Positions 6,794 through 63,568 of a DNA stretch of 64,000 nt are shown here, in pieces (the stretch's first letter is position 1; every line of letters begins with the position of its first letter). Source of the DNA: Closterium sp. NIES-65. Lineage: Eukaryota > Streptophyta > Zygnematophyceae > Desmidiales > Closteriaceae. The notes beneath the pieces are model-generated. The model searched no databases and was not told where the DNA came from. It was given only the letters and a program-made list of their open reading frames with translations. The stretch covers positions 124,001-188,000 of the forward strand of contig CANXME010002460.1 in the NCBI GenBank assembly GCA_948144175.1, in the 5' to 3' direction. A program made the translations under genes and the position numbers.

Positions 6794-7008
6794 CTACTGA
6801 CGATGATGATGCTCCTGCTCCTGCTGCTGCTGATGTTGATGTTGATGCTGATGTTCTAGTTGTGCGAGTGGAAGGGGTTCCGACGACGCACGGCGGATTG
6901 CCAAGCCTTTCAATCGCCGGAACACGGCAAGGAGGAACGACAGTAAGAAGGAAAGGAATGAGGAAAGCAGGAGCCAGGGGAAAAACACACTCGCGGAGAC
7001 CCCGCCTA

Positions 7009-7021
7009 CATCGCGGAAAAG
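7009..7021 (+). repeat. Left terminal inverted repeat
   Basis: CATCGCGGAAAAG, 13 bp, perfectly inverted at 19634-19646. Similarity stops after 13 bp. Confidence 0.9.
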
Positions 7022-7519
7022 TCAGGTGCTCAATTTTCATGTGAGTGGGTTTTTCCACGGAAAACCATACAAAAAGTGCCAGCGAGTACCCAAAACGTCC
7101 CAAAACACATGTGACGCAAATGTCACGGTAGGGCTCAAACCCTTAGCCTCAATACGGCCCCGTAAAAATCGAGGCGCGCATTTCCCCTCGTGGGACGCAC
7201 CTTGCCTCGAATCGCACATTTGGCGCGAGCACGTCATCGGGCTCTACGAAAGCAACGCCGTCGTTTCCGCTCTACACCAGATGCCCTCCTTAAAACATTT
7301 ACTATTTGCAGCAAGGTGCCAACATCTACACCAGTGGGATACTATTGATCATGGTAAAAGTGATGCAACATCCACCCAACCAAGTGACGCATCTGGTCTT
7401 AAAAAAAAACCATTAAAGGGGCCACCTCATGTGTCTACTGAGTTATCGTCAATTCCGTCCAGATCAGCGCACATTGCCACAGTGGACCCACACGTCACGG
7501 CAATAAAAACCCACCACCC
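7022..7519. other. Left subterminal region of the 12.6-kb transposon
   Basis: About 500 bp lie between the inverted repeat and the transposase stop. They contain GTGAC/GTCAC words (for example near 7111 and 7121) like those that crowd the right end. These could be accessory-protein binding sites, as in CACTA elements, but that is inference. Confidence 0.45.
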
Positions 7520-10500
7520 TCACTCCGTCAGCATGAACTTGTTCAGGAGCATGACCCGCTTGTTCACATAGGACTTGCCCACGTGCACCACACTCTGGAT
7601 GCACTCCACTTCCACCACCGCATATCTTGTTCTCACACGGTCGGGAGACAGCTGCAAGCATGTCGTCATCGGGCACGTGCCCTCCGCCTCGTAGTACTTC
7701 ACGTACACGTGTCGCCCCATCGCTCCGTCCGCCCCCTCCGCGCGGAAGATGCAGAGGCACCTTGCGTACCACTCCTCTTCGTCAGACCGGAACACTGCGA
7801 TGTCAGAAAACCACCGCTTAGAAGGGCTGGCCTTCACAAATGTGCCCTTGGGCACAAGCTCTCCCCCCCGCGTTCGGGGGATCGCCACGGCTGTATGCAC
7901 CTGCATACGCCGGGCAACAGAGACGGAGAACAGTGGATGCGGTGTGATGTCTTCACAAGGCTCTGTCCCTTCCATCATTCAGGCTATCCACCCCACGATG
8001 CATCAACCATCACCCAGCCATCTCATGTCCACCGTCATACCCCACCTCAATGGTAGTGGTGGGGATGCCTGCCGCCACCATGCACCCGGTGAGTGCGTCC
8101 ATGTCCGACCCATGAGCTTCGCGATACGCCCACATCACCGCATCCAGGTCTTCGTCCACGTGCGCCCTCCGTGATGTCTTCGTCAGGACTGGCTTCAGTC
8201 TTCGCACGGCCTGTGTGCACACAACAACATGCACGCCTCATGTGAGAACCCGGGGTCCGATGACACCCTCGCTTCTACAGCACCTTGTCAGCCTGGTACA
8301 CACCCCTCCCCCTCACCTCGCGCAGCGCCGTCACATACTGCCTGTTTCCGCCCGCTCTTGCCGCCACCTCCCGTGCAATCTCTCGCTGCACCTCCTCCTC
8401 GACAATATGGCGCGGGATGTCATGCCAGTTGCTGCCACGAACTGGCACCTTCACGGTGCCCTTGTGCGTGTGCTCCCAAAGGTTGGTGGATGTCTCGTGC
8501 GGCATACCACGCAGTGGTATGCCGTCAATCAGGTGCACGATCTGGTGCACCTTAGGGATGTTCCAGTCTGACGTCTGGTCCGGGAACGCGGCCTTGATGG
8601 CGTCCACCACCCTGCATGTGCGCGTGGGAGGCATTCTCAGGCGGGACATCACATTTATGTGCACATCACTAATATGAATAACGGGGAGGGTACGTACTGC
8701 ACAGCCATTTCTCGGACGTCGTCCAACGACTTCTCGGTATGCTTTGTCACGCCCACCAGCACCTTGTAGAAGCTGGCGTACGCCACAAACGCCGCCACCT
8801 CCCGTTCCCGTTTCGCCTTGGCCGGCGGCTTGCTCTTCTCCATGTTGTCTGCGACAAGCAGAGGCATCACCTGCATCATCCCCCTGTGCTCGAAGGCGGC
8901 ATAGTTCGCCCCTGTGCTGAACCATGTGGTCCCCCCCGGGATGCGCACCACACTTGCGCGCGTGTCCTTCTTTTGTTCCTTGCGGCGCCTGCCATGGTTG
9001 GGAAAGAGGGTCAGCAAAGCCACCGCCACAACAACGGAGGCTGCGCCATTACCATCTACACCCACCTCTCGAACTCACGCCTCTCTGGCTTGCTCTTCCC
9101 AACCATGAAGCACTTGCCCATGCGTGGCAGCATACCCCCGTCCAGGACGTGGAGAAGGTTCGCCGCGCATGTGAGGAACACGTTTCCCCACGTGGTCTCG
9201 GCAAAGTTCCACCTCTCCAAATAGCACTGCCACACGCAACAACGGCACGCATATGAACGGACCCTGCGTCACCCCGCCGGGTGCACAATTCCAGAGTGTG
9301 ATCCGAGCAAATCGGCACTGCACCTCCTCACCTGCACAGGGTGTGTGGACCATCGCTTTTTGATTTTCTCCGCCGCCTTGCTGTCATCAGCTGACTGAAT
9401 TGCCTCCACCACCCGTCTCTGCAGCTCCACCGTCCGCACCACCGACTTATGTAACAGGTCTGCCAGATGTGTCTCTTTTATGTAGCACGAAGAACTCGGC
9501 CGATGTGAGCCTTGCTGCATAGTCGAAGTAGACCGCGACGACTCTGGGAAGTCCCCCAGCTGCCCGAAGAGGCGGGGAAAGGCCTTCACCACCTTGCCTG
9601 TCGCGTCCGTCACATAAAACCACCGCAACTCGGCTCTGCACATGTTGGCCCGGTAAGTTGTAGGCATCTAAGTCATAGCATGGCGCGTAAGCTCCACTCC
9701 CACACCCACTCACCCTCTGTGTGCCCGGAGTAGGGGCTCGAAGATCACCTCCATGCACTGCTGGAAAATGTGTCTTCTCGGTCGACGACGCCCACTCTGG
9801 CGGGAACGGCAGCACCCCAGCCATTAGGTGCCCCGGCTCCTGCCAGCGGAGCGCTTCCGGTATGTTGAACAAACTGATTAGGACCGGCCATGCCGCCAGT
9901 CTGCCATTCCTCGAGGCGTGCGTGCTGTCGTTGTACACAATCACACCCATCACAATGCAGTCCTCCTCTCCAATCAGCGCCTGCGCACATGGTGCACCCA
10001 ACCGTCAGTGATGTAGTGCTTCATCGTTTCAGCGCATTCCACACAACTGAACAGGAGTTCATACCTGCGCTTCTTCCAGCCACCTCCCCGTGTCGGGAGT
10101 GCTGTAATGCCGCACCGTGTCGGTATCTTCCTTGTCTGCCCGAGGCTTGGTCACAAATCCCGCAATGTGCTGGAATGCGCGTAGCAATTTCTTCACCAGC
10201 TGCCACACGCATGCGGACGATGAGTTAATGGTATGCCCATTTCCCCCTGCCTCATATCAAACATGAAGTGGCCCTTTTTCCATGCATGTACGCATGCACT
10301 CACCAGCTCAGTATCTCGGTAGTGCAGCAGCAGCGTACACATCCTGCCTCTCGGGCCGTAGCACTTGATGTCCTTCGTCTTCCATGGGACATGATCACTT
10401 GGCGCCCTGTCGCGCCCAAAGCGTCTCACGTCCACGAAATTCAGCCACCGCCTCACGTCCCTCAAAGAGAAATTAGGGTTCTGAAATATGTTAAGAAGTC

Positions 10501-10894
10501 GGTTCACCTCCCTTCTGGACAGATCTGCCTCGCGGAAGAAGATGTATAGTTTGACCAGAGTGTTGAAGCCATCGTCGATCACTGACATCACACTCTCTTC
10601 CTCGTCGCTATCCTCCTCTAGGCCTTCGGGAGGGTCGGGTTGATCGGTAACTGCAACAGGGTCCACTGCGGCCCTCTCAGCTGAGTCATCTTCATAGCTG
10701 CGTCGAGAACGCACGGGTGAACGGGGCCTTGCTCCGCGCCTGGCGCGCAGCGCGTCCCGATACACCTCCACCAGCCGCCGGGCTCGAGAGTGCTATATCT
10801 TCCTCCTGCACTTGACATTCTTAGACACATGCGACTGGAGCGTGTTGTCGTCGACGTGCTCCAAGCCGCATGCCTCGCATGCGTTACCCAGCAT
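7520..10894 (-). pseudogene. Plavaka-like (CACTA superfamily) transposase, zinc-finger N-terminus, in-frame stop
   Basis: DNA transposase expected to bind the element ends and cut and join DNA. The frame starts at the ATG at 10894 with a C-x2-C...H...C finger (CEACGLEHVDDNTLQSH). It meets TAG at 10795-10793 and stays open beyond it. Exons I can place by splice site and phase: 10894-10304, 10199-10065, 9980-9714; several more follow, the last ending at 7520. Candidate catalytic blocks are VIVYNDSTHASRNG (Asp), NLLHVLDGGMLPRM (Asp) and ETSTNLWEHTHKG (Glu), in the order and context seen in Plavaka transposases (SDKT, LLHQL, ERxH). The block DWNIPKVHQIVHLIDGI and the C-terminal WYxR...VKYYE region also fit. 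A neighbouring frame near 9740 reads FQQCMEVIFEPL, so a frameshift is possible there. Confidence 0.75.
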
Positions 10895-11459
10895 CGCAAG
10901 AGGTGGCGCGGACCCTAATTGCAAGTTACCGATAAACTGTGCATCTCGTACACTCACGCAAATATACCAGCAACCCCCTCTGTGTTGGTACGACCTTCCG
11001 AGACGGTCACGGCGACCTTGTTAACGGTTGGGAACGGCCAATGTGTACCCGTATTTAGTAACATTGCATGATACACGTAAAGCAGTAGATAGCCTCGGTT
11101 TGTGACGGTTGAATATCATTGGTCTGTCCAGTGCAAAAGGAACAGCACAACCGCTCAAACATGAACGTAACCGAACAAAACCCAAACAATTCACTGAACA
11201 TTGGCGCCATCCTGGCCACCTATCTTACCCGCTCTCATCCATGTGCGTATGTTTGGTGGCGCACTGGGTCCGAATGACGATACTACATGTGTCCACACCG
11301 CCAACGTATGTGGACAGGAGTGCTGCAGTATGTGATTACGTGGCGGATAATGTCCGCGTGTACAATGACGCTCTCGGTCATTCGAGCCTCCTCTTAGTGT
11401 AAGCTAGTGGAGCTTATATTGTCAGCACTGGTGCTCGTGGTGCACTCTAGCTCTCAACC
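10895..11459. promoter_or_regulatory. Divergent promoter region of the 12.6-kb transposon
   Basis: 565 bp separate the transposase start (minus) from the DDE-like gene start (plus), so both promoters should lie here. No TATA box or repeat is distinct enough to call. Inferred from gene arrangement only. Confidence 0.35.
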
Positions 11460-12734
11460 ATGGCTGAATTGGCCATGCTACTCGCGGGGATAAAGGCTAA
11501 TCCAGACGACGTCTACTGCTTCGTGGAGGAGCCTCTCTTGCCCACCAGGCTCCCCTTCCTTCAATCTGAAAATGGACACGATGATCCGCTGCCCGGCTGG
11601 CGCATCAATATCTGTTTCCTGTTCAATGCAACGGGAACAATCATGTGTCCGCTTCTGATATTCCGCGCGGACGACGCGATTGCGCAGGGCCTTGAAACAC
11701 CCCCCGGTTTCACGGTGTTCGTGCGACACAGCGTGGACGGGTTCGTCACGCCCGAGGTGGGAGATCTCATGCTCATATGGCGTCTAGTCAGTCTGCGGAA
11801 TGCCTTGACCTTATCCTCGTGCAATCCCAGTTACTAACATGCCTGCTCCATCCTCGCGTGTAATGCTTGTCAGATATTCAGCGAGTACCTGGAAGCGTTG
11901 AATGGGAGGTCTTACTCTACCGACGACCATGTCATCGTCCTCGTGACGCAGGACGCTCACTCGTCAACGGATCCATCTGTCATGGAAACGACGGAGCACG
12001 GTTTCCGCGTTCAGATCCTGAGCAACCTCCGAATCATTCACATGCAGGGTCCTAATGCGCCGATGTGCATCCATCCCGGCGTGTGCGGTCTCATTGAGTT
12101 GTGGAAGACACTGTACCGTGCCTCGTACCTTCGCCATTTGATGATGACACCAGAGTGGCGCGACGGGACATTGTCCCGATACGCCCCTCCCCTGTCACTC
12201 ATGGTTTACTGGATGGCTTCAACGTGGAGGGACATAACTCCGGTTTCGGTCCATCTCACCAGGTGGCGCGCGGGCTGTGTGCCGGCACCATGGCGCTCTG
12301 CAGTGCGAGAGTTCAAAAACCCCGTTCTCTGTGTCCTGTCCGAACCTCTTGTTCAGGAGCTGTGACAGCTGCAGTACATCATAGACGAGTTCGTACGGCC
12401 CGGCCACACTCTCATGCATGTTACGGATTATGCACACTGCGAGCTAACCCTTCTCCCGCCACGCGTGCAGCGCACCATCAATGACACTCCTGCCGCCGAG
12501 GACGGGCGCGAGATAACCCTGCAGACGCAGTCAGGACCGCTGCTGAATGCCAGTCGTTGTCGCAGGCGGGTGGCGTGCGTCGTCACCGAATACCTTGTCC
12601 GTCGAGCCCTAGCGCTCGGCATTAATGTGCGTGACGCGCCAGAGCGGTTTGGCGCGTCGAACGCTCTGGTCGTCAGTCGTCTGCGCCGGGCGCCTACCAA
12701 GCGGCGCCGTCCGTCAACTGTAACCGTAATTTGA
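11460..12734 (+). pseudogene. pogo/Tigger-like DDE transposase relic, catalytic residues lost
   Basis: Exon 1 is 11460-11786 (ATG in good context) and exon 2 starts at 11874; the junction keeps phase 0. The frame meets TGA at 12363-12365 and then continues in the same frame to TGA at 12732-12734, 272 plus 122 residues. The layout follows the DDE_1 family of pogo/Tigger elements: NATGTIMCPLLIF matches the CNATG...PPLI segment, VIVLVTQDAHSS matches LLVDNAPSH, and NLRIIHMQGPN...GLIELWK matches LPPNTTS...QGIIASFK. The first acidic pair is replaced by VEE, DNA by QDAH, and the last Asp by HPGVCG, so cleavage is not expected. It may have been a DNA-binding accessory of the host element. Most likely the TGA replaces CGA (Arg). 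Confidence 0.5.
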
Positions 12735-13415
12735 TGTACTGCGGCCCTGGAATGATTGTTAAGCGGCGGGGTAATGGTGTGGGGGTCTAGAGTTTGGTAT
12801 GTAGGGGTGTGGCGTGCTATGGTCTGTCATATGCCGCGTCCAACTATCAAAATGGACGTGATGTCTTTGTGTTGTTGTGCGACTGTGTTAAACGAGTTCG
12901 TGTGGATAGGGTTTGAATGCCACCTTGGGTAGGCGAACCGAACCACAGCCTCTCGGTGGTAGTCCATGCTTATTGTGCGTGGTGCAAGAAGTTGAAAGTT
13001 TTATTTGCAATAACACACATTTTGAGCGTTTGATGATCCTCAAACCATAGAGAGTATGGACCATCGCACACCCGCACTTGCAACCTCGCGGTCACATGCA
13101 AAATAATCCCGTCGTCCTCGCCAAGGGCATGATGCATGATACGATATGATGACACGTGTGCCCATCATGCCTATCCAACGTTCCGCGCCAATTTCGCCAC
13201 AGCTGGATCTGGCGCGCTTTCGTAATCTCGGGCTTCATTGTCAATGCTGTATGTTTCCGAACAACAACAGACTCTGCAGAGCTCCAATGTCAACTGCCTG
13301 ATATAGTCGTCCGGTGAGCTACCATTACAGCAAACTAGGTTGTGTACTCTCAACTCCCTGTCTATCTCTCCCGTCTACCAAACCAGTACGCGTCTGAGTC
13401 TTCTAAGTGCACACG
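12735..13415. other. Spacer inside the 12.6-kb transposon; no gene seen
   Basis: No conserved frame is visible. The promoter of the Ulp1 gene is expected here. Confidence 0.4.
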
Positions 13416-15759
13416 ATGAACATACAACGTATGCTGGTGCAGCGAGACAACGTGTCGTGCGGGGCTAGTGCCCTGACCTCGCTGTCAACGGAGCAGGATC
13501 GTCGTAAGCGCAAGGTGAAGCAGGAGTTGCCCCACCCTCGTACCGTGACATCGGCAGGCAGCTCTGTGAGGGGCGCAGGAGAGGTGCCGCCGCCGCCCAA
13601 TGACGACGTCATTGCCCGTCTTGCCCGCCCCAACTATCAGCGTGATTTCCAGGCGTTGGCCCTGTACGGTCCCCATGGAGTGGGGTGTCAGCTACCAGCA
13701 CTGGACGTTCTGACTCTCGAAGACGGGCAGTGTTTGGCCGACACCGTTGTGAACTTCCATAACATGTAAGCGTCTTGTTAAGCATAGCTTTATACATGCT
13801 GGATGTTCGTCTTCCGTAACTCTACTGACGAGCCATGGCGTGCATATGTGCTGTGTTCCAGACTATTGAACATAAGACATCCGAAGCTAGAGGGAGGCAA
13901 AACATGGTTCGCTCTGGACACGAAGGCGTTTACGTTCGCGAACTCCCTGGACAAGGCTTGGCCCCTTGGCCATGCACCGTGTATCTTCGCACAGGACTAC
14001 CTCGCCATACCGGTGTACTACGAGTAAGATGTGTACCTCGTGATGCTCATGCTGTTGATAGTAGCCGGGTACCCGAGCAGTTGGTGCTAGATGCGCGCAT
14101 GCTAAAATATACCATGATTACATGTGTCAGGGGCCACTACTCGCTGGTCATAGCTACGAAACTCCGCACCATGGTCAGCGGGAAGCTATCCGAGACTGCA
14201 GAGGGCAGCGTGGAGCTGGTGCATTACGATAGTGCACAGCTGCACACCAAGAGGCCGGAGGTGATGGAGGGCGTCAAGAAGTGAGTGGTGCATCTTATAC
14301 TTACTCCATGCCCAATCTTGATAAATTTCACGGACGCCATGTATAACGATAAGGGTTACCTGATTCCCTTGCAGGATGTTGCTCATGCTGCACAAGGCTC
14401 AGCTGCCCACGGCCGACCGGAAGCAGGCAGAGGACCACCTGAAGTATGCCGAAGTCACCATCATGCATGTAAGTGCACTCCATGTGGGAGTCACGACGCG
14501 GACGCAGTCTGGATTGTCCGTCACCTGACGTGTGCGTTCTCATGTTGTGTGTCTGCTGGCAGCCGGAAGACATCCCACAACAGTCGAACGCGATAGACTG
14601 TGGGATTTATGTGGGCATGTATCTTCACACACTGGTGTCATCCGGCTTCTCAACCCTCAAAGAGTGGATGTCGTTCTACGGCGTGAAATCACACGCCTAC
14701 CGGCGCCAGCTCCGCGAGGAGGTTTCACTCCACACCACAGGTGACCTTTTTGTCAAGCTACTTGGGGAGGGTGTGGATGTTCCCGTGCAGCCTCTCCCAC
14801 AGTTGGGTGAACATGGTGCCCTCGTCTTTCCCAAGGAGGACGAAGTCCGCACCGACCTGGCGAGGCAGTCAGGCATGATCACCTGGATGGAGGTGGGGGG
14901 TTACGTTGTGTGTGCGGCTGTCATGTGCCTGGCACGTTCGCTTGGCATCTCAGAGGATCAGCTGCTGAGTGGAGCGGCCCACAAGCTGCAGGCACACGGG
15001 ACGCCTCTGCTGGCGCTGTCCACGTCCAAGAACCACGTGGATCATGTTGCATCCATGCGGACGCTCGGCATGACCATCCACCCGACGCCCTGCCCGATTC
15101 CGGTGCCATCGTTCCCTCCTGCGCATTTCGATGGGGCGTCCACCATTCAGATGGACCCGACACCAACAGTTGCCAACCCCATGAGGGCGGAGCAGGATCA
15201 CCCAACCGCTCCTGTGACTCCGGCAGCACCGCCGACGGTCTCGCGCGTTGCCAAGTATACCACGCGTCAGGGGAGTAGGACTGCATCACGGGCCGTGCGT
15301 CAGACCAGTATGCTTGCCGCGTACGGCAGTCGGCCTGCATCTAGTCGCTGGACAGGGGTGAGTTAGTGCACACGGGGCCGACAGTGGGGGGTTAAGATGG
15401 TGTGCGGACCAGGCACTGGTCAGCAGATCAGGCTGGGTGCGTATAATGTGGAGCTCGATGCGGCGTATGCGTATGCCGCGGCGGCATTTGTGATCAGGCG
15501 TAAAGACCACATCCCGCACACGAAGGAGCTGTCGGACGCAGAGAAGGCATCCCTGGACGGGTGTGTTCGCGATGACGTGCGTCATCTGGTCAAGGCACGG
15601 ATGTGGTGGAGGTGGCGTCAGTGGAGGACAGCAATGGTAGAGTTGGGCATTGCTCCTGGTACTCCCTTCCCTCTCGAAAACCATGGCACTCGCTCGACCA
15701 GCAACAGCAGTGGTGACGACGACGTGGAAGACAGGATGGTGGAAACTGGAAGTGGCTGA
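13416..15759 (+). CDS. Ulp1-type cysteine protease (C48) with an AP2-like tail behind an in-frame TAG
   Basis: Exons: 13416-13765, 13862-14023, 14131-14280, 14375-14468 and 14563 onward; all junctions keep phase. TAG at 15364-15366 ends a 519-residue protein. The C48 core (SUMO/ubiquitin-like deconjugating protease fold) shows LEDGQCLADTVVNF (cf. WLNDxVINF), catalytic His in GHYSLVI, Asp in LVHYDSAQL, Gln in PQQSNAI and Cys in DCGIYVGM, so the active site looks complete. Beyond the TAG the same frame continues to 15759 and, with Trp in place of the stop, reads as an AP2-like DNA-binding domain: RWTGVS-(stop)-CTRGRQWGVK, then IRLGAYNVELDAAYAYAAAA (cf. WLGTFDTxEEAARAYDxAA). A single TGG-to-TAG change at the conserved Trp would explain this. 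The protease call is firm, the AP2 tail moderately so. Confidence 0.75.
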
Positions 15760-16304
15760 TTGCTATGCTCCCCTCTCGAGGACCCATGGGCTTTGCCGTC
15801 AGGGAAACTGGAAGTGGCTGATTGCTACACGGATGGCAGTCACTAGGTCGTTGGACTTGTATAGGAAGCTTTGTACTATGGGTGAACACCATGTGATGCT
15901 AGATGGAGTTCTATCTCTTGATGTAATAGCATGCGTATTGCATGGATGTCGCCCTGTGGATGTCGTGTAGTAGTGCATAATGAATATCCACATATGTTTG
16001 GTAACAAACGCACCTGTGCGGAGGACATTTAATAGTTTTGCCAATGTGTAGCATTTGTTGTGACGATGCTACCCTGTGGAACATCATCTGACTCGACTCT
16101 ATAACGAGATGTGTGGATAACCATGCGTCAAAGTTGAGCCATGTGGGCAAAACCCGCCACCTGACAAACCCAGTCCGGCCGACAATCGGTTGCCACGTGT
16201 AATGGGGGGGTACAGCACAGATGTGCCCAAGGGTTGGACGCTGAATGCGTAAGTAGTGAACACTATGTCGGGCAGGCTCATTCTTGCCTACAACTTTGTT
16301 CACG
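15760..16304. other. Spacer inside the 12.6-kb transposon; no gene seen
   Basis: A short direct repeat, GAAACTGGAAGTGGCTGATT, occurs at about 15742 and 15805. No coding frame is recognised. Confidence 0.4.
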
Positions 16305-18365
16305 ATGGACAGTTTCACAGTGTCGTCACGTGAGGGCAGGAGTCAGCGCGTGTCACAACCACCTGCGTACCTGCAGAACTCTTACCTTCTGCCTGGGAAT
16401 GTTAGGCGTCAGGTGACGAAGAAGCCTCGTCTAGATATTCCGAAGCATGCCCACGAGCAGCAAGCCAGGGGTCCTCCCTCGCCGCCACGTGAGTGACCTT
16501 GTTTTGCCCTGCTAATGTGTTCGGTGCTTTGTCCATTCTACCCTGGCCGCTGTGACATTCCTACACAGTATGCTCGTTTCGGCTTTGCGCTCGTCACTTA
16601 TCTGCGTTTTTTATTCCATTGTGTGAAACGCAGCCGTGACACCATCTCATGGGACTCGCGGGGACTCGCGTATGTCGCATGGGAGCACTTCTAAGGGTAG
16701 TTCCTCCTCTGCCCAGTCCAGCAGGCAGGTTGACGAGACCGCTGCTTCCAGCGGGAAGGCGGGCCGCAGGCGCAAACGTCAGGTTCAAGACGTCATCGAA
16801 GGCTCTGCATGAGTGGATGGGGAACATGACGCACCTCCTGCGCCATCATCGGACGACGATCCAAACGAGGATCTCCCCAGGCGTAACCCAGTGAACACTC
16901 AAGACGAGGATGGTGCGGAAAGCGGACAACAATGCCGAGGCTGACGCAGAAGAGGACGACGCCGGCGCAAAACGTGCTCCGGATGACGCACCGGTCACGC
17001 GCGAGGATCTGAATAGCATGAGGGAGCTCCATGAAGCCACGGCACGTGCGATTGCAAGGCTGGAGACATCTTTCCTTGCGAAACCCAAGGATGACATCAA
17101 CAATAAGAAGAGGAGGAGGCGAAAGCGCGGCTCCGGCAAGGGAAAGCGCCAGAAGGCGCGGCGGTCACGCTCCACGTCCGAGACAGCGTCCGATGAGGAG
17201 GGGGGCTTCGACGACGAGAACGAGGGCCACCTTCGACACTCAACATCTGCCATTATGCAGGAGCCGCTCGACCTCCTCCCGACCGACAAAGGCTGGAAGG
17301 TAAGCCTAGAGTGTTGTCGTGTCGCATTATGGTTTGGGATATGAGGCTGTACACATGGTGGATCATGTCTGGTGATTGGTGACGTAATGCGTGGTCTGTC
17401 ATTGCAGGAAATATGTGAGCAGGCTCGCACCGAGCTGTTCATTCGGCGCTCCAACTCGCAGTTGGCGTTCTACCCCAGCAGCGCAGCCAAGACATGGGCC
17501 ATTTGCGCAGTCGTGGATAACCTGACTGTGAGCTATGCAAGCGTTGCTCTCGCGGCGTGCAAGGCACGTCGGATCGACCTGAACAGGTCGTTCAGCGACT
17601 GGAAGACTGGTGCGGCAGGGAGAGTCCGCGACATCTCGCTGCCTAGGATTGGACTGTTCCGCCACGACCGAGACATGAAGAGTCCCTGGGCGACACGGGC
17701 CAGGCGCACCCTGTCCCGAATCCGAGATAGGGTCGGCCTTGGAGACATGCCGGCGGGTAAGAACGTGCTGCCGTAACAAGGGCGGATGGGAGTGCAGTGC
17801 ACAAGCCTGAGATCGCCGTTATTAAATGTGCACATTTTGTGTGCGTATTGTGGCAGGTAAGCTGGCACTGTCTCATTGGAGTTGCGACCGTGACGGGATG
17901 CCGTTCGCGTTTGGGGCGTTTACAGCATGCGCGCGGGCGGCGTTCAAGCCAAGGATGGTGAACGGGACTGTGACACTGAAGCTATACCACGTGGCATGGC
18001 TAGAGCACGTGGTACGCCGGCACTGTGCAGCTTTACAGGGTTTAAAATATCAGGGAGAGAGTCCTCATGCGCGCCTGTATGTGGATTGCCGTGCGCAGGT
18101 GACAGATGCAGTCAAGCACTGGGAGGCTCGCCAGGGTCGCTTCTACAACTCCGCAAGCACCAACGCGCAGATCGTGGACGGCCTCCACGTCATCGTACAG
18201 GCAGCGGTTAGGGGGGCCATCGCGGATTTCCAGCCCGCCTATGACGAGGCGTCCCAGAGCTGGGCGTGGGGCCGCCATGGTCTGCGCATCTCGGCGGACG
18301 GCATCGCGGCTGCCGACGTAGTGACCGCGGAGGCAAGCGTCAGTCGCGGGTCTCGGCAGGCATAA
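16305..18365 (+). pseudogene. Basic, acidic-patched accessory protein of unknown function, with lesions
   Basis: Four exons fit by splice site and phase: 16305-16488, 16634-17299, 17408-17756 and 17857-18365. Exon 2 has an in-frame TGA at 16810-16812 (GSA-stop-VDGEHD) and needs a one-base frame change near 16910 to reach its second half. That half has a helical stretch (REDLNSMRELHEATARAIAR), a strongly basic stretch that could be a nuclear localisation signal (KKRRRRKRGSGKGKRQKARR) and an acidic patch. Exons 3-4 (about 285 residues) look globular, with no domain I recognise. By position it may correspond to the DNA-binding helper protein of CACTA elements; that is inference. Confidence 0.5.
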
Positions 18366-19633
18366 TCGGAGTAACAACGGGAGGCGATGTCTGGCATCGT
18401 GAGCTGGTGCATAGAATTGTGGTACCACCATATGTCTAATGCGTATGAAGGTGGCGTTGTATGGGAAAGGCGGTGGGCTGTGTGAGGATGCTGTAATCGA
18501 GGGATGTGGTACGGCATCAGCCGCGTGTTCAAGCGATTAATGGCAATTGCGTTCACCACTGAAGGAACAAGAAAATCTGTACAATTAATCACGTGAAGTC
18601 GTGAGCAGGGGGGAAACATAACCCGTCAACCATTCAGCGGAACGTAAAATGAGGCAGACAATTACGGCTATTGGCGTAGGGTCACTAACGCAGAATGCGG
18701 TTCGGATGTGTGCCGTTCGATGCGGTTAGGATGGGACCGCGATTCGGTTTGAGACGGTCCAACCAACCTTATCGTGGGGCTGCGCGTGGCGAGCCCTATG
18801 CCCACTGGAGCCGTAGATGCAAGTGCATCGGCAGCCCAGTGTGCCGTTGGATAATGGTCCGGTGGACGGTCGAGGGCAGGACAAGTGGGCCAGCATCAGT
18901 GGCTCCACACTACGTGTACAATGGCCACGTGGGTGTATACAAACAGACGGGAATAATTACACGTTGACACTGGTAAGATCAGGCTCGCGATGCCGAATGC
19001 GAGGCATCGTCGATGCGTGTGTACGTGGACGGTCGGATACACATCGTGTTTACATGTGCAGTTATCATGAGCATGGTAACAGCCGTACACGTTGCCATAA
19101 TTCAACGGCATTCGTCGTGTACACGTAGTCTGGTGGCGACGAGAGGTATTGAGAGTCGACCAATGGGTAACAGGTCTTATTCACATATGGCGCGTGTGTA
19201 TTGGTTACAGAGAGTGAAAACGAAGGGTGTGGATGCGATTCCGGGTTGATCGTGGTCGTCCACGTGAATGCAGTTGGTTGGATAGGACTGTGGCTCGAGG
19301 CGCCTTGCACTGTACAGTGTTGTAACTTACGATATGTCATGATGACGTCATGGCCGCCACGTGTATGGTTGCTATAAGATTGAGACTAAATGTGGCATTT
19401 GTTATTCGCCCGACTGAGGCCACCCCAGTGTGACTTGTGCGTGACTTCCGCGTGACTATGCTGTGACGGTTGTCGTGACGCGGCAGAAGGTTTTCCGTGA
19501 CATTTCCGTGACATCCCCGTCACGTTGGAAGTGACATTGGGCTTGTCACTTCCAACCATCACATTTTTACACCCAAAAGTCGTATACGAAAATGTGACGG
19601 AAAAGTCACATTTCTGTCACTTCATGCCCTTGG
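18366..19633. other. Right subterminal region with GTGAC/GTCAC repeats
   Basis: No coding frame is recognised. From about 19425 to 19625 the words GTGAC and GTCAC recur in both orientations at roughly 10-25-bp spacing (19431, 19440, 19453, 19463, 19474, 19497, 19509, 19519, 19530, 19545 and on). Dense subterminal repeats of this kind are where CACTA helper proteins bind. A second set of CACGTG/TACACG words lies at about 18920-19180. Confidence 0.55.
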
Positions 19634-19646
19634 CTTTTCCGCGATG
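19634..19646 (-). repeat. Right terminal inverted repeat
   Basis: CTTTTCCGCGATG, the exact reverse complement of 7009-7021, followed by the TA also found at 7007-7008. Confidence 0.9.
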
Positions 19647-20904
19647 TACCACTCTACCCCCTTGCGTCCTACCCCAGAACCACCCCCAGGTACCATCACG
19701 CGTCTCCACATTCCCATCTCCACCATCTCCACCTGCAGCACCCACACCTGCACTTGCCTCTCCACCATCGTCATTTCCTCCATTACTCCCTGCCCATGCT
19801 GATCCACGCACATGACGCCTGTGCTGCTCCGTGTCGGGATTGAAACCTCTAGTGAGTCCATGAGGAGGGATATGGGGGAAATCGAGAGCAGAGAAGAAGG
19901 AGATGGTATCTGACTCCTCCTCTTTCTGTTGGTGCTGCTGCTGCTGCTGATGCTGATGCTGCTGACGCTGATGCTGCTGACGCTGATGCTGCTACTGCAC
20001 ACGCCACTGGTGCTGACGGTTTCCCTGCTGCGGTTGCTACTCTTGCTGCTGTTCCCAGGGCTGAAACATGTGCTCCTTTTTATCATACACACCAGCGCCT
20101 ACTTCGTCCTCCCTCTCCCGCCATCCCTGTGTTACAGAGCTGCCTCACCACCACCACCACCACCATCTTTTGCTCCTGTGCTCCTCCTGGTCCCCCTTCG
20201 CTCCCCATCCCTCAGGTGTTTCCTCAGGTGTTTCCCAGGATTCAACAGCCGTTTCGCCAGGCATTGGCACCACCGTAGCTCCTCGTTTAGCTCCTATCGC
20301 TGCTCTTGCTGCTGCTTCAACAGCTCTCTTATGCCCTGCGGTAGCACACGCGCTCCCGGCTGTCGAAGGGGTCGACTTCCCCCCCTCCTGCAGCTTCCCA
20401 CGCCGCTGCTGCTGGTCCACCGCGGACAGAGGCTCGCCAGAACGAGCAGAAGCAAAAGCATCACCATGTACAGACCCCCTGGGAGGCGTGAAGGGCGTGT
20501 TCAGTGAACCAAGCTGCGGAGACGCGAAGGAGAGGGGGGCGCCGGGGGAAGCGAGTAGCGGAAGAGCCATCCGAAGGTAGTAGGCGTGTTTGTGCTCTCA
20601 AGGGGAGAGATCCACGCCTTGATCGAGAAGCCACTGTTTCAGCTGAGCCGTGCTCATGGATCTTAGCTCCTGCTCCCGCGCGTACCGACGTTGCTGTTGC
20701 TCCTGCTTGTTCTGATGCTGTTGATGCTGCTGGGGCTGCAAATGCTGCTGGTCGTGTCGCTGTTGCCGCTGCTGCTCCTCCTGAAACCATCTCCCTAATT
20801 CGCCGACAGCAACAGACGAACCCGGCGCCGTCGGATCTTGTCTAGGAGGTCCATTGACAGCCGTCTGATCGTAACCCGCGTCTTGTTTACCACGATTTGC
20901 TTTT

Positions 20905-21243: not shown

Positions 21244-24200
21244 TCAAGAAGAGAGCAAGTGAGGCAAGACAGGCACAAGACCCAGCTGGGTACAACAGCG
21301 CTGATGGTCACAAGGCCCCAGTGCCTTGGTGAACACATCAGCAGTGTTGGCCTCAGAGGCCACGTACGCAAGTCGCAACTGACCACGCTGCTGCAGCTCA
21401 CGAGCAAGGAAGTAGCGGAGAGCAATGTGCTTCGTTCTGTGCTCCAAGCGCTGCTCTCGACACAAGGCCAGCATGGCCTTGTTGTCTACGTACAGCACTG
21501 GAGGAGAACGAGGCGGCTCTCCAAGGTCAGTCAGCAGGTAGGTGAGCCAGCGAAGCTCCTGTGCAGCCATGGCCCCGGCGTAGATCTCAGCCTCACAACT
21601 GGAGCCGAGAACCGAAGACGAGCGAGTAGACCGCCACGAGACAGAGCCGGAACCAAGGCTGAAGGTGTAACCCTGTGACGACCGCTGCGTAGCCTGGTCG
21701 TCAGCCCAAGAAGCGTCCGCGTGGCCTGTAAGGACCACTGGACTGCGCCCTCCAAGCACTAGCCCCATGCCTGACGTACTGCACAGGTAGCGCAATACCC
21801 TCTTCGCCGCAGCCATGTGCTCTGGTCGGTGTCTCCCAGGAGCAACATAGCGTGCAAGGATGCTTAGAGGGTATGCGAGGTCGGGTCGTGTGCAGGTCAT
21901 CAGGTACATGAGGCAGCCAACAAGCTCTGCATACGGACCACTCGACTCTACGGACTCATCCGAAGGCAGAGCTGAGAGTGAGTGGCGAGTAGGCAGAGGA
22001 GTGGCCTGAGGCGAGGAGTACGTGAAGCCGAAGCGCTGAAGGACCTGCTGCACCATGTGTGACTGAGTCAAGGTGATGGTGCGGCGTGCTCTGTCCCGAG
22101 TGATCTGCAAGCCAAGGTAGCTGCGCAGTTCACCCAGGTCTGTGCACGTGTGTCTCTTCAGCAGCTCGGACTTCACGTAGGCGAGTCCAGCAGTGTCCGC
22201 TGTGGCAAAGACCAAGTCGTCGACGTACACGAGGATGTAGAACGGCGGCAGGGAAGCGTCGGTGCGAAGAAACAGCGACGGGTCAGCAGTAGAAGGAGCA
22301 AACCCAAGAGCCGCAAGCGTAGTCCTCAGTGTGTCGTGCCACTCACGCGGTGCCTGGCGGAGACCGTAGACTGGCCGTCGGAGGCTCCACTGGGTTCCAG
22401 GAGGGAAAGTCCCAGTGAAGCCAGGCGGACGGCGTAGCCAGATCTCCTCGTGCAGGCTACCCTGCAGGAACGCAGTGCTGAAGTCAAGAGAGTGAAGCTC
22501 GTAGTCGCGCTGAGCGGCTATGTGCAGCAGCACCCGAAGAGTGGTCATCTTCGGGGTGGGAGAGAAGGTCTGAAAGTAGTCAACTCCCTGCCGCTGACTG
22601 AAGCCACGAGCAACGTACCGTGCCTTGAAGACAGGTGGAGAGCCCGGCGGTCGCTTCACCCTGAAGATCCACATGCCACTGACGATGTTCGCCCCAAGAG
22701 GGGGAACTGCGTCAACGTAGGTGCCTGTGGACTTCCAGGAAGCCATCTCTGCATCCATAGCTGCCTGCCACTGAGAGGAGTAGGGACCCTCTACGGCCTC
22801 CGCGTAAGAACGCGGAGTCGGGATGTCTAGTGCATCCGGGTCTCCCTCAGGGGCAAGCAGTACAGACGCGAGATGAGGTGAAGCAGCCGCTAGACACTGT
22901 AACTCCTCCTGTCTGTCCTCTAGGACGTCCGTGCCAAGAGCACACTCACCCCCGACGGACAGAGGACAGCCAGACACAGACTCAGCAACAAGACTAGCAG
23001 CGTAGTCGAGACGACAGCGAGCAGCAAAGTCAACGAGCTCAGCGACCAGAGCAGACGCAGCAGTGGACTCAAACGAGGGGTCAGTGACGACAGTAGCAAG
23101 CAGACGCGTGACAGTAGGACTGGCAGCGCGAAGAGAGTCCGACTCAGGGTCGGCAAGCGCAGGAAGAGAGGACTCAGGAGGAGAAGGCAAAGGGGCACGC
23201 AGAGGAGCAGTGGACGGACGCAGAGACATCCGATGCGTGCCAGGGACAGGAGGAGGACGCTGACGCGAACTGCGACCACTAGCGCGAGCAGCACGAACAG
23301 GCGACGCGGGACGAGACGCAGGCTCACGGCGCTCAGCAAGACCTCCAGTAGGACCAGTGTAAGGAGAGGGAGCAGGCAGCGGAGAGGAAGGCTCCAGTAG
23401 GGACTGCGACTGGACAGGCGGTGGACCCTCTACAGGAGGAGAAAGACCAAGAACCTGCTGCAGGAGCGGAACGAAGTACGGCCGAGGCCGCGCGGCAGCT
23501 CCAGACTCAGCAGGGACAGTACCAGCACCCTCAGCGACAGCACCAGCGCCACCCACACCTCCAGCGGCAGGTCCAACAGCAGCAGGCTCAGCACCAACGC
23601 CCTCAGCAGCTCCAGCTCCAGGAGGACCAGTAGGTCCAGCAGCTCCGGGACCGGCAGCACCCGCACCCTCGACGGTCGAAGAAGCTCCAGCCCCAGCTCC
23701 AGCAGCACCTCCAGACTCAGCAGCACGCCTCCAGCGGCGAGCGAACCACTCGCGCAGCTCCGGTGGAGAGAGGGGCTCCCGGCGAGACGCAGCAGCAGGA
23801 GAAACCCCAGGCTCAGCAACTCTAGGCGCAGCACCCCCAGGCTCAGCAGCTCCCAGCTCAGTACCCTCAGGCCCAGCAGCTCCCAGCTCAGCACCCTCAG
23901 ACTCAGCACCTCCAGGCACAGCACCCCCCGGCCCAGTACCCCCAGGCTCCGCACCCACCGCAGTAGCACCCCCAGGCCCAGCACCCCCAGCAGTAGCACC
24001 CCCAGGCCCCGCACCCTCAGGGTCAGCACCCCCAGAGTCAGCACCCCCAGGCTCAGCACCCGCAGCAGCACCAGAGTCACCAGTAACCTCGACCGGGTCA
24101 ACGGCGTCTACCTGGGACACACCTGAGGGGGCAGGAACCTGAGGGGGGAGGGGGTCGACCGGGGGGGGAACCGGCACAAGGAAGTCCGGGGGAGGGGGGA

Positions 24201-27171
24201 GGGAAGGAGTGCGGTAGGGGAAGAGACGGTAGAAGGGGACTGACTCGTCGAACGTGACGTCCTGGGAGGACAGAACACGACGAGAGGAGGGGTGGTAAAA
24301 CTGCCACCCTGGGGCGTCAGTGGGGAAGCCAAGGAAGACACAGGGAGCAGCACGGGGGGACAGCTTGTCGGCAGACAAGTCGCGGACAAACGCCCGAGAT
24401 CCCCAGACACGGAACACAGACGCATCGCCAATTTTCCCTGTCCACAGCAAGACTGGGGACATCGCAGGCCGAGAGACCCGGGGGTGAAGGTTGAGCTGAT
24501 GCGCCGCGTACCTCACAGCAAACGGCCACAGAAAATGGGGGGCAGCCGCATGCATCATGGACGTACGAGCGACATCCATGACCATGCCAATGCGGCGCTC
24601 AGCAATCCCATTTTGCTGTGGTGAGTCCGGAAGCGTGAAGGTCTGGCGGATCCCCCGTGCACGACAGTAGTCTCGCAGAAGGCGAGAAGAGAACTCTCCG
24701 CCTCTGTCAGAGTGCAGACGCAGAACAGGAAAGTCCGAGCCGAAGCTCTTCCTGAGCTGGAGACGAGCCTCGCGGATCCAGTCGATCAGCACCTCAGTGA
24801 CCGCACCCTTGCTGCGCAAGGGGAGGACTGAGGTGTAACGCGAGTAGTCGTCAACCACCAACAGGAAGTAGCGCTCGTAACCCTGCCCACGGACGGGGGC
24901 TGGGCCCCACACATCCATGTGAAGCGTCTGCAGGGGAGCCTCTGTCGGGGGGAAGTGGGAGGAGTGAGGAGTAGCTCGGAGGCGACCCTCGACACAGGGG
25001 ACACAGGAAGGTCCTGGCCCGGAGGGGAGAGGAGGGAGAGACTGGGGAAGACCAGAGACAAGGACACGGGAAGCCATGCTCCGAAGACGGGGCAAGGAGG
25101 GGTGGCCAAGACGGTGGTGCCACAGGAGAGTCTCGTGAGACAGGAGGCGACAAGAACAGGGGGCAGACTCAGGACCTGACCTGGAAGCAGCAGCAAACAC
25201 CTGACCTGACGCAGCTACCTGACCAGACGCAGGGACAGGAGGAGACGAAGTGGTCAGGGTGTAGAGACTCGACCCTGGCCGACGCGAAAAGGTGGCCAGG
25301 TGTCGGCCTGTGTCTGCGTCCGTGCAGTGGGTCACCCGTCGCCTCGCAGGAGTGAACTGGTGAACCCCCGCATCCTGTAGGTCCGCACCACTCACCAAGT
25401 TCGTAGAGAACGAGGGAAGGTACAGACCAGACAGGGTGCCCGAAGGGGCAGCCGGACACGGGAGGACAGTGGAGAAGTGAGACAGGACAGGACCCCCAGA
25501 GGGGTCAGCAAGGGAGACCGCAACCGGCCGGCCAAGAGGCGTAAGGGTAGTGCGGTCTCGAAAGAAGGAGCGAGAAGCCCCAGAGTCAAGTGTGAAAGTG
25601 AGGGAGGACGAGGGCGACGCAGTACCTGAGAGCGCAGTCTCACCAGCACCTGAGAGCGCAGTCTCACTAGTACCTGAGAGCGCAGACGCACTGGCACCTA
25701 GAGCAGCAGCCTCACAAGTACCTAGCGCAGCAGTACCAATGCCCAGGTCGGGCTGGAAACACCGGTAACCCTCATGCTCCTCACTATAAGTCACAGCATA
25801 CATAGCAGAAAGGATAGCATCAAAATCAAGATCAAAGATCGCTACACCAGCCCTAAGGAGCTCATCCCAGCGAGGGATCTCACTAGCCCCGGGGAACTGC
25901 TGACGCCAAGCGTCCGTGAGGCGGCCAAAGCAGCGCTGGGTGGAGTGGGCACCCCCACACTGCTCACCCGCGCGGTCGCCGGAACGAAGAACGTAGGCGC
26001 AGGGACCAGTACCCCCACCCCTCTGACGCGCAGCGTACCACTCACGAAGCTGCTGAGGCGGAGGGATGTCCCGCGAACGCTGCTGCTGCTGCCGCTGCGA
26101 GCGCTGGGCACCACCACCGCCGCTCCGCTGCTGGGTACCACCACGACCAGCTCCACCTCCTCCACCACCACCGCCTCCTCCGCCGCCGCCTCCACTGCCT
26201 CCACCTCCACCGCCTCCGCTCCCGCTGCTGCCTCCACCACCACCGCTGGCACTACCACTACCGTCTCCGCCGCTGCTGCCACCACCACCACCACCACCAC
26301 CACTACTCCCGCCACCACCCCCACTCCCTCCGCCGCCTCCGCCGCCACCGCCACCGCCCCCTCCAGCTCCGCCCGCGCCCTTGCCCCCCTTGCCCTTGCT
26401 AGAGCGACGTCTCCCACTAGGGGCAGACGCCGCGCCGACCGACTCAAGACCAAGCAGGTCGGCCGCAGCAGCAGAGGCAACAGAGGGCAGCAAGGGGGAA
26501 GGAGAGCACCCCTCAAAGATGGGGGTGCGAGGGTCACCACGAGAGGCACCTACAGCGACTATGCTCTTCTCCGCTGCGAGGAGGGCCTTCTCGAGGAGGT
26601 CGACGGTGAGAGTGGTGGGACAGACTGCGAGAAAGTGGTCCCTGACTACGCGGAGGGAGTCAGGGAGGCGCGCGACTACGTAGTAGAGAGTGATGTACAT
26701 GGGGGGGGGGTTCTTAGCGCAGAACTCAGCAGGAAGGGCGGCGCGGTAGCGAGTGTCACTAGTGCGGAGGTGCGTAATGAGGTCAGTGGCAGTGGGAAAG
26801 ACAGAGAGGTCAGCAAAGAGGTAGGGAAGCATGAGACGGCTCAGTGCAGCAGTGGCAGGGGAGGAGTAGCGCGCAACTACAGCGTCGTACAAGGTCTGAG
26901 CACTCTTGTACTGACTAAAGTGCGCACGCTCAGAGGTAGGGAGGTGGCGACGCACAGCAAGACGTGCAGCAGCATCGCGGGTGGCCCACTGAGAGCGGAC
27001 AGTGGGATCAGCATCGGCAGCAGGAGCAGGAGAGGCGCCAGAGGTGAGGTCAAAGAGAGAAAGGCTGTCAGCTCTGTCGCACTGTAAGAAAAGCTGCAGG
27101 TCGTCTAGCCAGACCTCAAAATCAATGGCTCGACCCTCGGCGTCAAAGGCTAGGACACTAGGGGTGGCCAT
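21244..27171 (-). CDS. Copia Gag-Pol polyprotein
   Basis: The frame gives about 1,975 residues from the ATG at 27171 (an in-frame ATG 24 bases upstream is less likely; MATPSVLAF matches the usual gag start). Order: gag helical region (1-260); a glycine/serine tract of about 90 residues; a C-x13-C-x3-H-x4-C zinc-knuckle-like motif in place of the classic CCHC; protease LDSGAS; integrase with HRLGH...CVPC zinc site and DDE residues in HMDVWGP, LHSDRGGEF and QQNGIAERR; a Pro/Gly/Ala-rich linker; reverse transcriptase with YVDDLVF; and RNase H with HADASWAD, SCEAEIYA and LYVDNKAM. It copies the RNA to cDNA and integrates it. All catalytic motifs are present and no frameshift is seen. The tail ends a little before the 3' LTR. 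Confidence 0.95.
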   Translation of the reverse strand: MATPSVLAFDAEGRAIDFEVWLDDLQLFLQCDRADSLSLFDLTSGASPAPAADADPTVRSQWATRDAAARLAVRRHLPTSERAHFSQYKSAQTLYDAVVARYSSPATAALSRLMLPYLFADLSVFPTATDLITHLRTSDTRYRAALPAEFCAKNPPPMYITLYYVVARLPDSLRVVRDHFLAVCPTTLTVDLLEKALLAAEKSIVAVGASRGDPRTPIFEGCSPSPLLPSVASAAAADLLGLESVGAASAPSGRRRSSKGKGGKGAGGAGGGGGGGGGGGGGSGGGGGSSGGGGGGGGSSGGDGSGSASGGGGGSSGSGGGGGGGSGGGGGGGGGGGGGGAGRGGTQQRSGGGGAQRSQRQQQQRSRDIPPPQQLREWYAARQRGGGTGPCAYVLRSGDRAGEQCGGAHSTQRCFGRLTDAWRQQFPGASEIPRWDELLRAGVAIFDLDFDAILSAMYAVTYSEEHEGYRCFQPDLGIGTAALGTCEAAALGASASALSGTSETALSGAGETALSGTASPSSSLTFTLDSGASRSFFRDRTTLTPLGRPVAVSLADPSGGPVLSHFSTVLPCPAAPSGTLSGLYLPSFSTNLVSGADLQDAGVHQFTPARRRVTHCTDADTGRHLATFSRRPGSSLYTLTTSSPPVPASGQVAASGQVFAAASRSGPESAPCSCRLLSHETLLWHHRLGHPSLPRLRSMASRVLVSGLPQSLPPLPSGPGPSCVPCVEGRLRATPHSSHFPPTEAPLQTLHMDVWGPAPVRGQGYERYFLLVVDDYSRYTSVLPLRSKGAVTEVLIDWIREARLQLRKSFGSDFPVLRLHSDRGGEFSSRLLRDYCRARGIRQTFTLPDSPQQNGIAERRIGMVMDVARTSMMHAAAPHFLWPFAVRYAAHQLNLHPRVSRPAMSPVLLWTGKIGDASVFRVWGSRAFVRDLSADKLSPRAAPCVFLGFPTDAPGWQFYHPSSRRVLSSQDVTFDESVPFYRLFPYRTPSLPPPPDFLVPVPPPVDPLPPQVPAPSGVSQVDAVDPVEVTGDSGAAAGAEPGGADSGGADPEGAGPGGATAGGAGPGGATAVGAEPGGTGPGGAVPGGAESEGAELGAAGPEGTELGAAEPGGAAPRVAEPGVSPAAASRREPLSPPELREWFARRWRRAAESGGAAGAGAGASSTVEGAGAAGPGAAGPTGPPGAGAAEGVGAEPAAVGPAAGGVGGAGAVAEGAGTVPAESGAAARPRPYFVPLLQQVLGLSPPVEGPPPVQSQSLLEPSSPLPAPSPYTGPTGGLAERREPASRPASPVRAARASGRSSRQRPPPVPGTHRMSLRPSTAPLRAPLPSPPESSLPALADPESDSLRAASPTVTRLLATVVTDPSFESTAASALVAELVDFAARCRLDYAASLVAESVSGCPLSVGGECALGTDVLEDRQEELQCLAAASPHLASVLLAPEGDPDALDIPTPRSYAEAVEGPYSSQWQAAMDAEMASWKSTGTYVDAVPPLGANIVSGMWIFRVKRPPGSPPVFKARYVARGFSQRQGVDYFQTFSPTPKMTTLRVLLHIAAQRDYELHSLDFSTAFLQGSLHEEIWLRRPPGFTGTFPPGTQWSLRRPVYGLRQAPREWHDTLRTTLAALGFAPSTADPSLFLRTDASLPPFYILVYVDDLVFATADTAGLAYVKSELLKRHTCTDLGELRSYLGLQITRDRARRTITLTQSHMVQQVLQRFGFTYSSPQATPLPTRHSLSALPSDESVESSGPYAELVGCLMYLMTCTRPDLAYPLSILARYVAPGRHRPEHMAAAKRVLRYLCSTSGMGLVLGGRSPVVLTGHADASWADDQATQRSSQGYTFSLGSGSVSWRSTRSSSVLGSSCEAEIYAGAMAAQELRWLTYLLTDLGEPPRSPPVLYVDNKAMLALCREQRLEHRTKHIALRYFLARELQQRGQLRLAYVASEANTADVFTKALGPCDHQRCCTQLGLVPVLPHLLSS

Positions 27172-52585: not shown

Positions 52586-63568
<10,983 letters not shown>

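Follow-up and report, generated by a model that had tools for sequence, protein, structure and literature searches.

Plavaka transposases have been placed with the CACTA/EnSpm transposons (Kojima 2025, PMC12730594), as an earlier note on this DNA had stated. In the part of that work on which we draw, PlavakaB elements of fungi have termini CATCA..TGATG and target-site duplications of 2-3 bp, and some of them carry an accessory gene, a TET/JBP dioxygenase; the catalytic residues of the clade follow the order D, D, H(3-4)H, E, with a C(2)C motif between the second D and the E (PMC12730594). EnSpm-Plavaka elements of the green alga Auxenochlorella belong to the same superfamily, and the portion of their description available to us mentions no cargo (PMC12636532). 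A CACTA-clade transposase accompanied by a Ulp1 domain is found in the CACTA-ULP elements of grapevine and rice, whose transposase is of the Tnp2 type and for which the accessible text mentions no AP2 or pogo-type gene (PMC2528002). In KIU/Vandal MULEs, which are non-TIR Mutator-type elements, Ulp1 is joined to a sequence-specific targeting protein (VANC) and short noncoding repeat motifs serve as targets (PMC13317346, PMC10398659); according to the available part of a 2026 review, the precise function of Ulp1 in non-TIR Mutator elements is unknown. Finally, giant EnSpm, KDZ and Sola elements of Ectocarpus and red algae exceed 10 kb, carry accessory genes and often have a broken transposase, and their accessory genes are reported, in the text we could consult, as mostly of unknown function or as a ParB-methyltransferase in Sola-1 (PMC12477816).

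The window, that is the whole stretch of 64,000 nucleotides that was analysed, contains a 12,638-bp element at 7009-19646. Its left TIR, CATCGCGGAAAAG (7009-7021, forward strand), and its right TIR, the complement of CATCGCGGAAAAG (19634-19646, reverse strand), form a perfect 13-bp inverted match, and a TA copy, to which no strand applies, stands on either flank (7007-7008 and 19647-19648), as read from the sequence and in a scan of inverted pairs. The perfect repeats and the TA duplication announced in the earlier note are thus both present. Equally perfect ends are obtained with a 15-bp TIR, TACATCGCGGAAAAG, and a CC duplication (left CC at 7005-7006); we prefer TA for the sole reason that published ends start with CATC. 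In either case the duplication has the 2-3 bp length known from PlavakaB. The termini, CATCG..CGATG, agree with those of PlavakaB in four of five bases, the fifth being G and not A (PMC12730594).

Perfect 13-mer inverted pairs are frequent in this window. We counted 1805 of them 1-20 kb apart, 115 outside simple repeats, and ten of these 115 are flanked by some 2-bp duplication; 20 first-order Markov resamplings gave means of 24.6 non-simple pairs and 1.9 pairs with a 2-bp duplication. When the 16-base end was searched in the window with up to 3 mismatches, just the two ends were recovered, and at least two such sites were also obtained in 7 of 100 shuffles. These counts would suit a chance pair of ends, with the transposase belonging to an element bounded elsewhere and the remaining genes being mere neighbours. 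We nevertheless judge this highly improbable: the pair at 7009/19646 is the only one flanked by TA, a combination seen in none of the resamplings, it is also the only duplication-flanked pair that starts with CA, and its ends match published Plavaka-type ends. Moreover, a dense array of short sites lies at most 220 bp from the right end and its pitch is found again near the left end.

This right subterminal array (19430-19620, no strand) comprises 13 GTGAC/GTCAC sites in 250 bp, with seven pairs spaced by exactly 11 bp, a number reached in 0 of 20,000 random placements for a motif that had been picked by eye prior to counting. Short runs of period 11 were found there by TRF as well. At the left end there is just one pair, GTGAC(6)GTCAC (7111-7126, no strand), with the same 11-bp pitch. 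In En/Spm, the subterminal repeats are the sites at which a DNA-binding protein encoded by the element docks.

We consider it fairly probable that 7009-19646 is a single cut-and-paste DNA transposon of 12.6 kb, Plavaka-like with PlavakaB-type ends and known from one copy. Joining the flanks to recreate an empty site gave no convincing host frame: four frames cross the junction, and the longest of them (206 codons) is a low-complexity reading. No relatives of the transposase, Ulp1, the second exon of the DDE gene or the last exon of the helper gene were found in the viral collection viral_contigs, nor of the transposase and Ulp1 in the prokaryotic collection genome_contigs; both results carry little weight. 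Two related classes were set aside. CACTA/EnSpm in the strict sense has CAC ends, a 3-bp duplication and a Tnp2-type domain, whereas the element has CATCG, 2 bp and a Plavaka domain; KDZ, with an 8-bp duplication in Zisupton according to the part of the source used here (PMC12730594), differs from the 2 bp observed, and there is no match to a KDZ profile.

The transposase gene occupies 7520-10894 on the reverse strand. Its nine exons (10894-10304, 10199-10065, 9980-9714, 9635-9332, 9226-9066, 8988-8698, 8611-8317, 8210-8046 and 7960-7520) encode 883 aa, and all eight introns are GT-AG with phases that agree. The product matches PF18759, the Plavaka transposase domain, with E = 6.4e-23 (81.9 bits, Pfam cut-off 26.3), nearly over the full length of the profile (12-312 of 325); this is the sole Pfam match above cut-off, AAA_lid_7 being sub-threshold, and the only match among PDB sequences is at chance level (E = 0.29). 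The frame is damaged by a TAG at 10795-10793 and a break near 9766. It contains one internal stop in 884 codons, as compared with a mean of 28.8 and a minimum of 15 in 500 shuffles. Reading this single sequence, we observed the catalytic motifs in the order of the clade: D (YND, 9935-9921), D (GDFPE, 9556-9539), H-x3-H (8553-8530) and E (NLWEHTHK, 8484-8461). In place of the C-x2-C of PlavakaB (PMC12730594), S-x2-C stands between the second D and the E (PSSSC within 9499-9479), in a copy that is otherwise damaged. The earlier note had called this protein a Plavaka-like zinc-finger transposase. The Pfam match bears out the transposase; the possible N-terminal zinc finger CEACG..H..C (C-x2-C..H..C, 10808-10879, reverse strand) is a motif found by reading, with no match in Pfam. 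Upstream, the gap between the divergent gene blocks (10895-11459, no strand) is presumed from the gene directions to be a two-way promoter region.

The first gene on the other side of this gap is of the pogo/Tigger type (11460-12734, forward strand; exons 11460-11756 and 11874-12734), with an in-frame TGA at 12363-12365. Its first 235 residues match DDE_1 with 26.2 bits (Pfam cut-off 22, E = 6.7e-6), a score favoured by our having selected the GT donor at 11757 while looking at the DDE consensus; the second exon alone, which is independent of this choice, reaches 16.4 bits (E = 0.0068) and stays below that cut-off. Neither the 385-aa form of the protein nor the second exon with its TGA read through gave anything in Pfam. 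Against a DDE consensus of our own the gene scores 14.8 bits, the best of 3000 shuffles being 8.2, and it has one internal stop in 386 codons (mean 10.6 and minimum 2 in 500 shuffles). A first model, in which exon 1 ended at 11780, was rejected: it had no match in Pfam or among PDB sequences, it scored 6.3 bits against our consensus with 5.3 for the best of 3000 shuffles, and two frames of the window scored higher, one of them being the second exon itself. The pogo-like DDE relic of the earlier note was therefore recovered as DDE_1 after correction of this splice site. If the catalytic positions are those that we presume from the motifs, the first is Glu, the second is ambiguous and the third Asp position is Val (HPGVCG, 12072-12089), so that no intact triad was read and, on this assignment, at least one catalytic Asp is replaced.

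The Ulp1 gene follows at 13416-15759 on the forward strand (exons 13416-13765, 13862-14023, 14131-14280, 14375-14468 and 14563-15759), with an in-frame TAG at 15364-15366 and one internal stop in 651 codons (mean 19.0 and minimum 8 in 500 shuffles). The protease proposed earlier is well recognized, by Peptidase_C48 in Pfam (E = 1.7e-9) and by a match to SENP2 (E = 3e-5), and the His, Asp, Gln and Cys motifs of C48 are present in order. An AP2-like domain, split by the TAG, lies at 15343-15507 on the same strand. It scores 29.2 bits with our own AP2 profile of six sequences (best of 2000 shuffles, 9.3); over 979 frames of the window the same profile gives 23.6 bits for the frame after the TAG and 8.1 for the next one. 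The PDB sequence of WRI1 is matched with E = 0.0024, summed over two matches that are each weak. Pfam reports no AP2 in the 119-, 398-, 81-, 55- or 58-aa forms, nor is the domain reported in NCBIfam. A fold model of the stretch has three strands followed by a helix, the order of AP2, at a pLDDT of 41.5, too poor to be used.

The reading frame of Ulp1 extends, past one TAG, through the AP2-like part; the ancestral gene therefore probably encoded a Ulp1-AP2 fusion, a SUMO protease joined to a probable DNA-binding domain of plant type that Pfam does not report as AP2. The AP2-like domain of the earlier note is accordingly retained, on our profile and the PDB match, as a part of the Ulp1 gene and not as a separate module. 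Alternatively, Ulp1 and AP2 could be two adjoining genes without fusion, as the TAG itself and an ATG after it, at 15397, would allow, or a 27-nt intron could take out the stop, which is enclosed by GT..AG borders 27 nt apart (15358-15384). We regard either version as unlikely, given that the frame continues exactly, that inclusion of the codons before the TAG improves the match to the AP2 profile, from 23.6 to 29.2 bits, and that 77-145 nt is the size range of the introns we assigned in other parts of the element.

The basic helper of the earlier note is present as an orphan gene of four exons at 16305-18365 on the forward strand, interrupted by a TGA at 16810-16812 and, before 16919, by a single frame break. 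It has one internal stop in 569 codons, where 500 shuffles gave a mean of 14.5 and a minimum of 5, and K+R make up 15.6% of its composition. Pieces of 412 and 120 aa gave no Pfam match above cut-off and the C-terminal 285 aa no match among PDB sequences; the fold model of the last exon is mostly helical (pLDDT 47.7).

Of the five modules that the earlier note had counted in one element, four remain as genes, the AP2-like part belonging to that of Ulp1. Third-position GC is 0.67-0.74 in the genes and 0.49-0.55 in the introns, similarly across all four. Because their frames are nearly free of stops and share this bias, the four genes look like one co-maintained set. Since every one of them contains a single in-frame stop, the copy is unlikely to be autonomous and would depend on functions supplied in trans. 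The stop in every gene would equally suit a Plavaka transposon that later and separately acquired a pogo element and host gene pieces (Ulp1, AP2), the cargo being passenger DNA without a role; nested insertions occur in most giant brown-algal families in the part of the survey seen (PMC12477816), and capture of Ulp1 is described, in the texts available to us, for several plant transposons. This history seems to us rather less probable, though worth keeping in view. The cargo frames, including that of the pogo-type gene with its lost Asp, are roughly as free of stops as that of the transposase and have the same third-position bias. In addition, a scan for 14-base ends with up to 2 mismatches in the gaps flanking the four cargo intervals detected no inner inverted ends with a target duplication, as nested insertions with their own ends would have left, and the flanks of the pogo gene (10900-11462 and 12735-13415) gave 0 candidates for inverted ends with a TA duplication.

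Taking the four genes as one set, we can sketch how the element might have worked. The transposase would cut at the CATC..GATG ends and insert at a 2-bp target. The GTGAC/GTCAC sites, pitched at 11 bp or about one per helix turn, would form a docking array for a DNA-binding protein encoded by the element. The Ulp1-AP2 protein would bring its SUMO protease to the element DNA and there free silencing or repair factors of the host from SUMO, and the pogo-type protein, having at least partly lost its catalytic Asp while its frame was kept open, could be a DNA-binding or assembly partner that does not cut. The sequence suggests that such elements may aim a SUMO protease at their own DNA and thereby escape silencing. 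The full proposal, a Plavaka lineage with a self-aimed deSUMOylating anti-silencing system in which Ulp1-AP2 reads the 11-bp-phased GTGAC array beside a cutting-dead pogo-derived helper, parallel to, and independent of, the VANC proteins with Ulp1 in plant Mutator elements, is speculative and we think it doubtful as a whole. VANC is not known to be an AP2 protein.

The element thus resembles PlavakaB in its domain, its CATC..GATG ends, its 2-bp duplication and the possession of accessory genes, and differs in their nature, here Ulp1-AP2, a pogo-type DDE and a basic protein, as well as in the fifth terminal base and the C-x2-C motif, PlavakaB being described from fungi in the material consulted (PMC12730594). 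In the portion of the open-licence literature covered, we found neither a Ulp1-AP2 fusion in a transposon nor a Plavaka element with Ulp1. Brown and red algae are already known to harbour large EnSpm elements that carry accessory genes (PMC12477816), and EnSpm-Plavaka occurs in a green alga (PMC12636532), as far as these sources were seen, so that of the new lineage of large algal transposons that the earlier note thought possible, no more than the combination of genes may be new. Ulp1 domains turn up repeatedly among plant transposons that are not related to one another. A Ulp1 protease with a recognizable DNA-binding domain and a compact phased array would, if true, make locally aimed SUMO removal directly testable, and should the host be an alga, the range of PlavakaB-type ends, which the part of the source used describes from fungi (PMC12730594), would widen to another kind of host.

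The earlier note proposed that the 12,638-bp segment at 7009-19646 of the window is a single large transposon with a Plavaka-like transposase. Such a gene is indeed present on the minus strand, from 10894 to 7520, with nine exons, in-phase joins and eight introns of 77-106 nt, all bounded by GT-AG. Its 883-aa product matches Plavaka in Pfam with E = 6.4e-23 over profile positions 12-312 of 325; one exon by itself reached only 21.5 bits in Pfam, below the cut-off. Two acids, H-x3-H and a final Glu are readable in the clade order given by Kojima (excerpt of PMC12730594), but the C-x2-C that the same excerpt gives for the Plavaka clade is S-x2-C here. The gene is damaged by a TAG at codon 34 and by a break of the frame near 9766. 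Across 884 codons its frame shows a single internal stop, against a mean of 28.8 and a minimum of 15 in 500 shuffles.

Perfect 13-bp inverted repeats with a TA duplication were also found, as had been claimed: the left repeat, CATCGCGGAAAAG, occupies 7009-7021, its exact complement occupies 19634-19646, and TA lies outside both. Such pairs alone are not rare in the window, since we counted 115 non-simple-repeat perfect 13-mer inverted pairs at 1-20 kb spacing, 10 of them with a 2-bp duplication (means of 24.6 and 1.9 in 20 Markov resamplings). The TA duplication, however, is unique to this pair in the window and was seen in none of the 20 resamplings. The 16-base end CATCGCGGAAAAGTCA, sought with up to 3 mismatches, is present in the window only at the two ends of the element (0 and 1 mismatches); at least two such sites turned up in 7 of 100 shuffles. 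The same data allow another boundary, a 15-bp repeat starting TACATC with CC as the duplication. We favour the TA reading because PlavakaB ends of fungi are published as starting CATCA (Kojima 2025, excerpt of PMC12730594).

The surroundings hold other features. An uninterrupted Ty1/copia frame of 1996 codons (21244-27234, minus strand; RVT_2 E = 4.8e-49, integrase, gag-pre-integrase) lies 1.6 kb to the right of the element. At 35747-36643 (minus) is a C17orf113-type zinc-finger gene (E = 1e-10), possibly derived from a hAT element, and at 43060-44706 (plus) a single frame joins a B-box-like zinc finger (E = 2.8e-4, below cut-off) to Cyclin_N (E = 5.3e-6), to our knowledge an unusual pairing. 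The copia type and the B-box-cyclin gene would fit a streptophyte alga as host. Rfam finds five tRNA genes, all on the minus strand (6150, 29087, 30950, 50826, 51310); ARAGORN called all except 29087, each as tRNA-Thr (anticodons CGT twice, AGT twice). About nine identical-looking units of FAPNMHQVGAAEMKERERHL and a partial tenth form an array at 61347-62210.

The cargo genes of the element start at 11460 on the plus strand, opposite in direction to the transposase. The DDE gene has two exons, 386 codons and one TGA, and with the exon border at GT 11757 it matches DDE_1 at 26.2 bits (cut-off 22; E = 6.7e-6). An earlier border, which hid the DDE_1 match, was rejected; with the new one, the longer product of 385 aa still had no Pfam match. 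In place of QPLDQG, a motif of pogo transposases, the gene has HPGVCG, and thus the third catalytic Asp, at least, is lost.

The Ulp1 gene has five exons and, as announced, encodes a Ulp1 protease (Pfam E = 1.7e-9; SENP2 E = 3e-5), with GHYSLV, HYDS and QQSNAIDCG in that order. Its frame extends across a single TAG (15364-15366) to an AP2-like stretch. Against our own profile built from six AP2 sequences, and with the TAG scored as X, the read-through stretch scored 29.2 bits (best of 2000 shuffles, 9.3); over 979 window frames, the post-TAG part scored 23.6 bits and the next frame 8.1. With the TAG as W, the top PDB match was WRI1 (E = 0.0024, the sum of two individually weak matches), AP2 proteins being 4 of the best 10 listed; the post-TAG part alone matched WRI1 at 0.074. 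Because Pfam reported no AP2 for five forms of the stretch, the AP2 module of the earlier note is retained as probable only. A perfect 25-bp direct repeat (15741-15765 and 15803-15827), perhaps a small duplication, covers the Ulp1-AP2 stop codon with its first copy.

The basic gene has four exons, 569 codons, one TGA and one frame break, and no relatives were found for the pieces scanned. The modules could instead be separate nested insertions with their own ends. We scanned the flanks of the four cargo intervals for inverted ends of 14 bases (up to 2 mismatches) next to a target duplication, criteria that would miss shorter or more decayed ends. The four intervals yielded 0, 2, 1 and 3 end pairs, all of them lacking a duplication; when each set of flanks was shuffled five times, 0-1 pairs had one. 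Stops are about as scarce in the cargo frames as in that of the transposase, with a single internal one in the 651 codons of the Ulp1-AP2 gene, the 386 of the DDE gene and the 569 of the basic gene (against means of 19.0, 10.6 and 14.5 in shuffles), and third-position GC is 0.67-0.74 in transposase and cargo genes alike, versus 0.49-0.55 in introns. In this single copy, this argues that the cargo, the cutting-dead pogo-type gene included, probably stayed open together with the transposase until recently.

According to excerpts of the literature, Ulp1-carrying CACTA elements occur in grapevine and rice (PMC2528002), oomycete Cryptons may bear a Ulp1-type peptidase (PMC3212892), brown algae have giant EnSpm elements and red algae such elements with multiple accessory genes (PMC12477816), and EnSpm-Plavaka is reported in Auxenochlorella (PMC12636532). 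Neither the present gene combination nor a Ulp1-AP2 fusion in any transposon was among the matches listed from open-licence literature.

The right end carries a feature absent from the earlier note, an array of GTGAC/GTCAC sites with an 11-bp pitch at 19430-19620. The last 250 bp of the element hold 13 sites (mean 1.3, maximum 7 in 5000 Markov resamplings), and no stretch with at least 8 sites per 250 bp starts outside 19150-19700 in the window. As the motif was chosen by eye from this end before counting, the number of sites is in part a result of that choice, which does not apply to the spacing. Seven pairs lie at exactly 11 bp, against at most one in the resamplings and a maximum of 5 when 13 sites were placed at random 20,000 times, and the single GTGAC..GTCAC pair of the left end is likewise spaced by 11 bp. 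Tandem Repeats Finder gives short period-11 runs; since the spacers between sites vary, the array is more than a short tandem duplication. With about one site per helical turn, it points to a candidate protein-docking array.

Beyond the ends, genes, array and damage observed in the element, we propose that the Plavaka transposase would move it by cut-and-paste, that an element-encoded protein would dock on the array, and that Ulp1-AP2 may take SUMO off locally and so weaken silencing. According to the excerpts consulted (PMC13317346, PMC10398659), VANC of plant Vandal elements binds short noncoding repeat motifs of its own family and lifts silencing, and some VANC versions bear a Ulp1 domain; it would be the closest working analogue of the proposed Ulp1-AP2 action, a resemblance in function and not in kinship.
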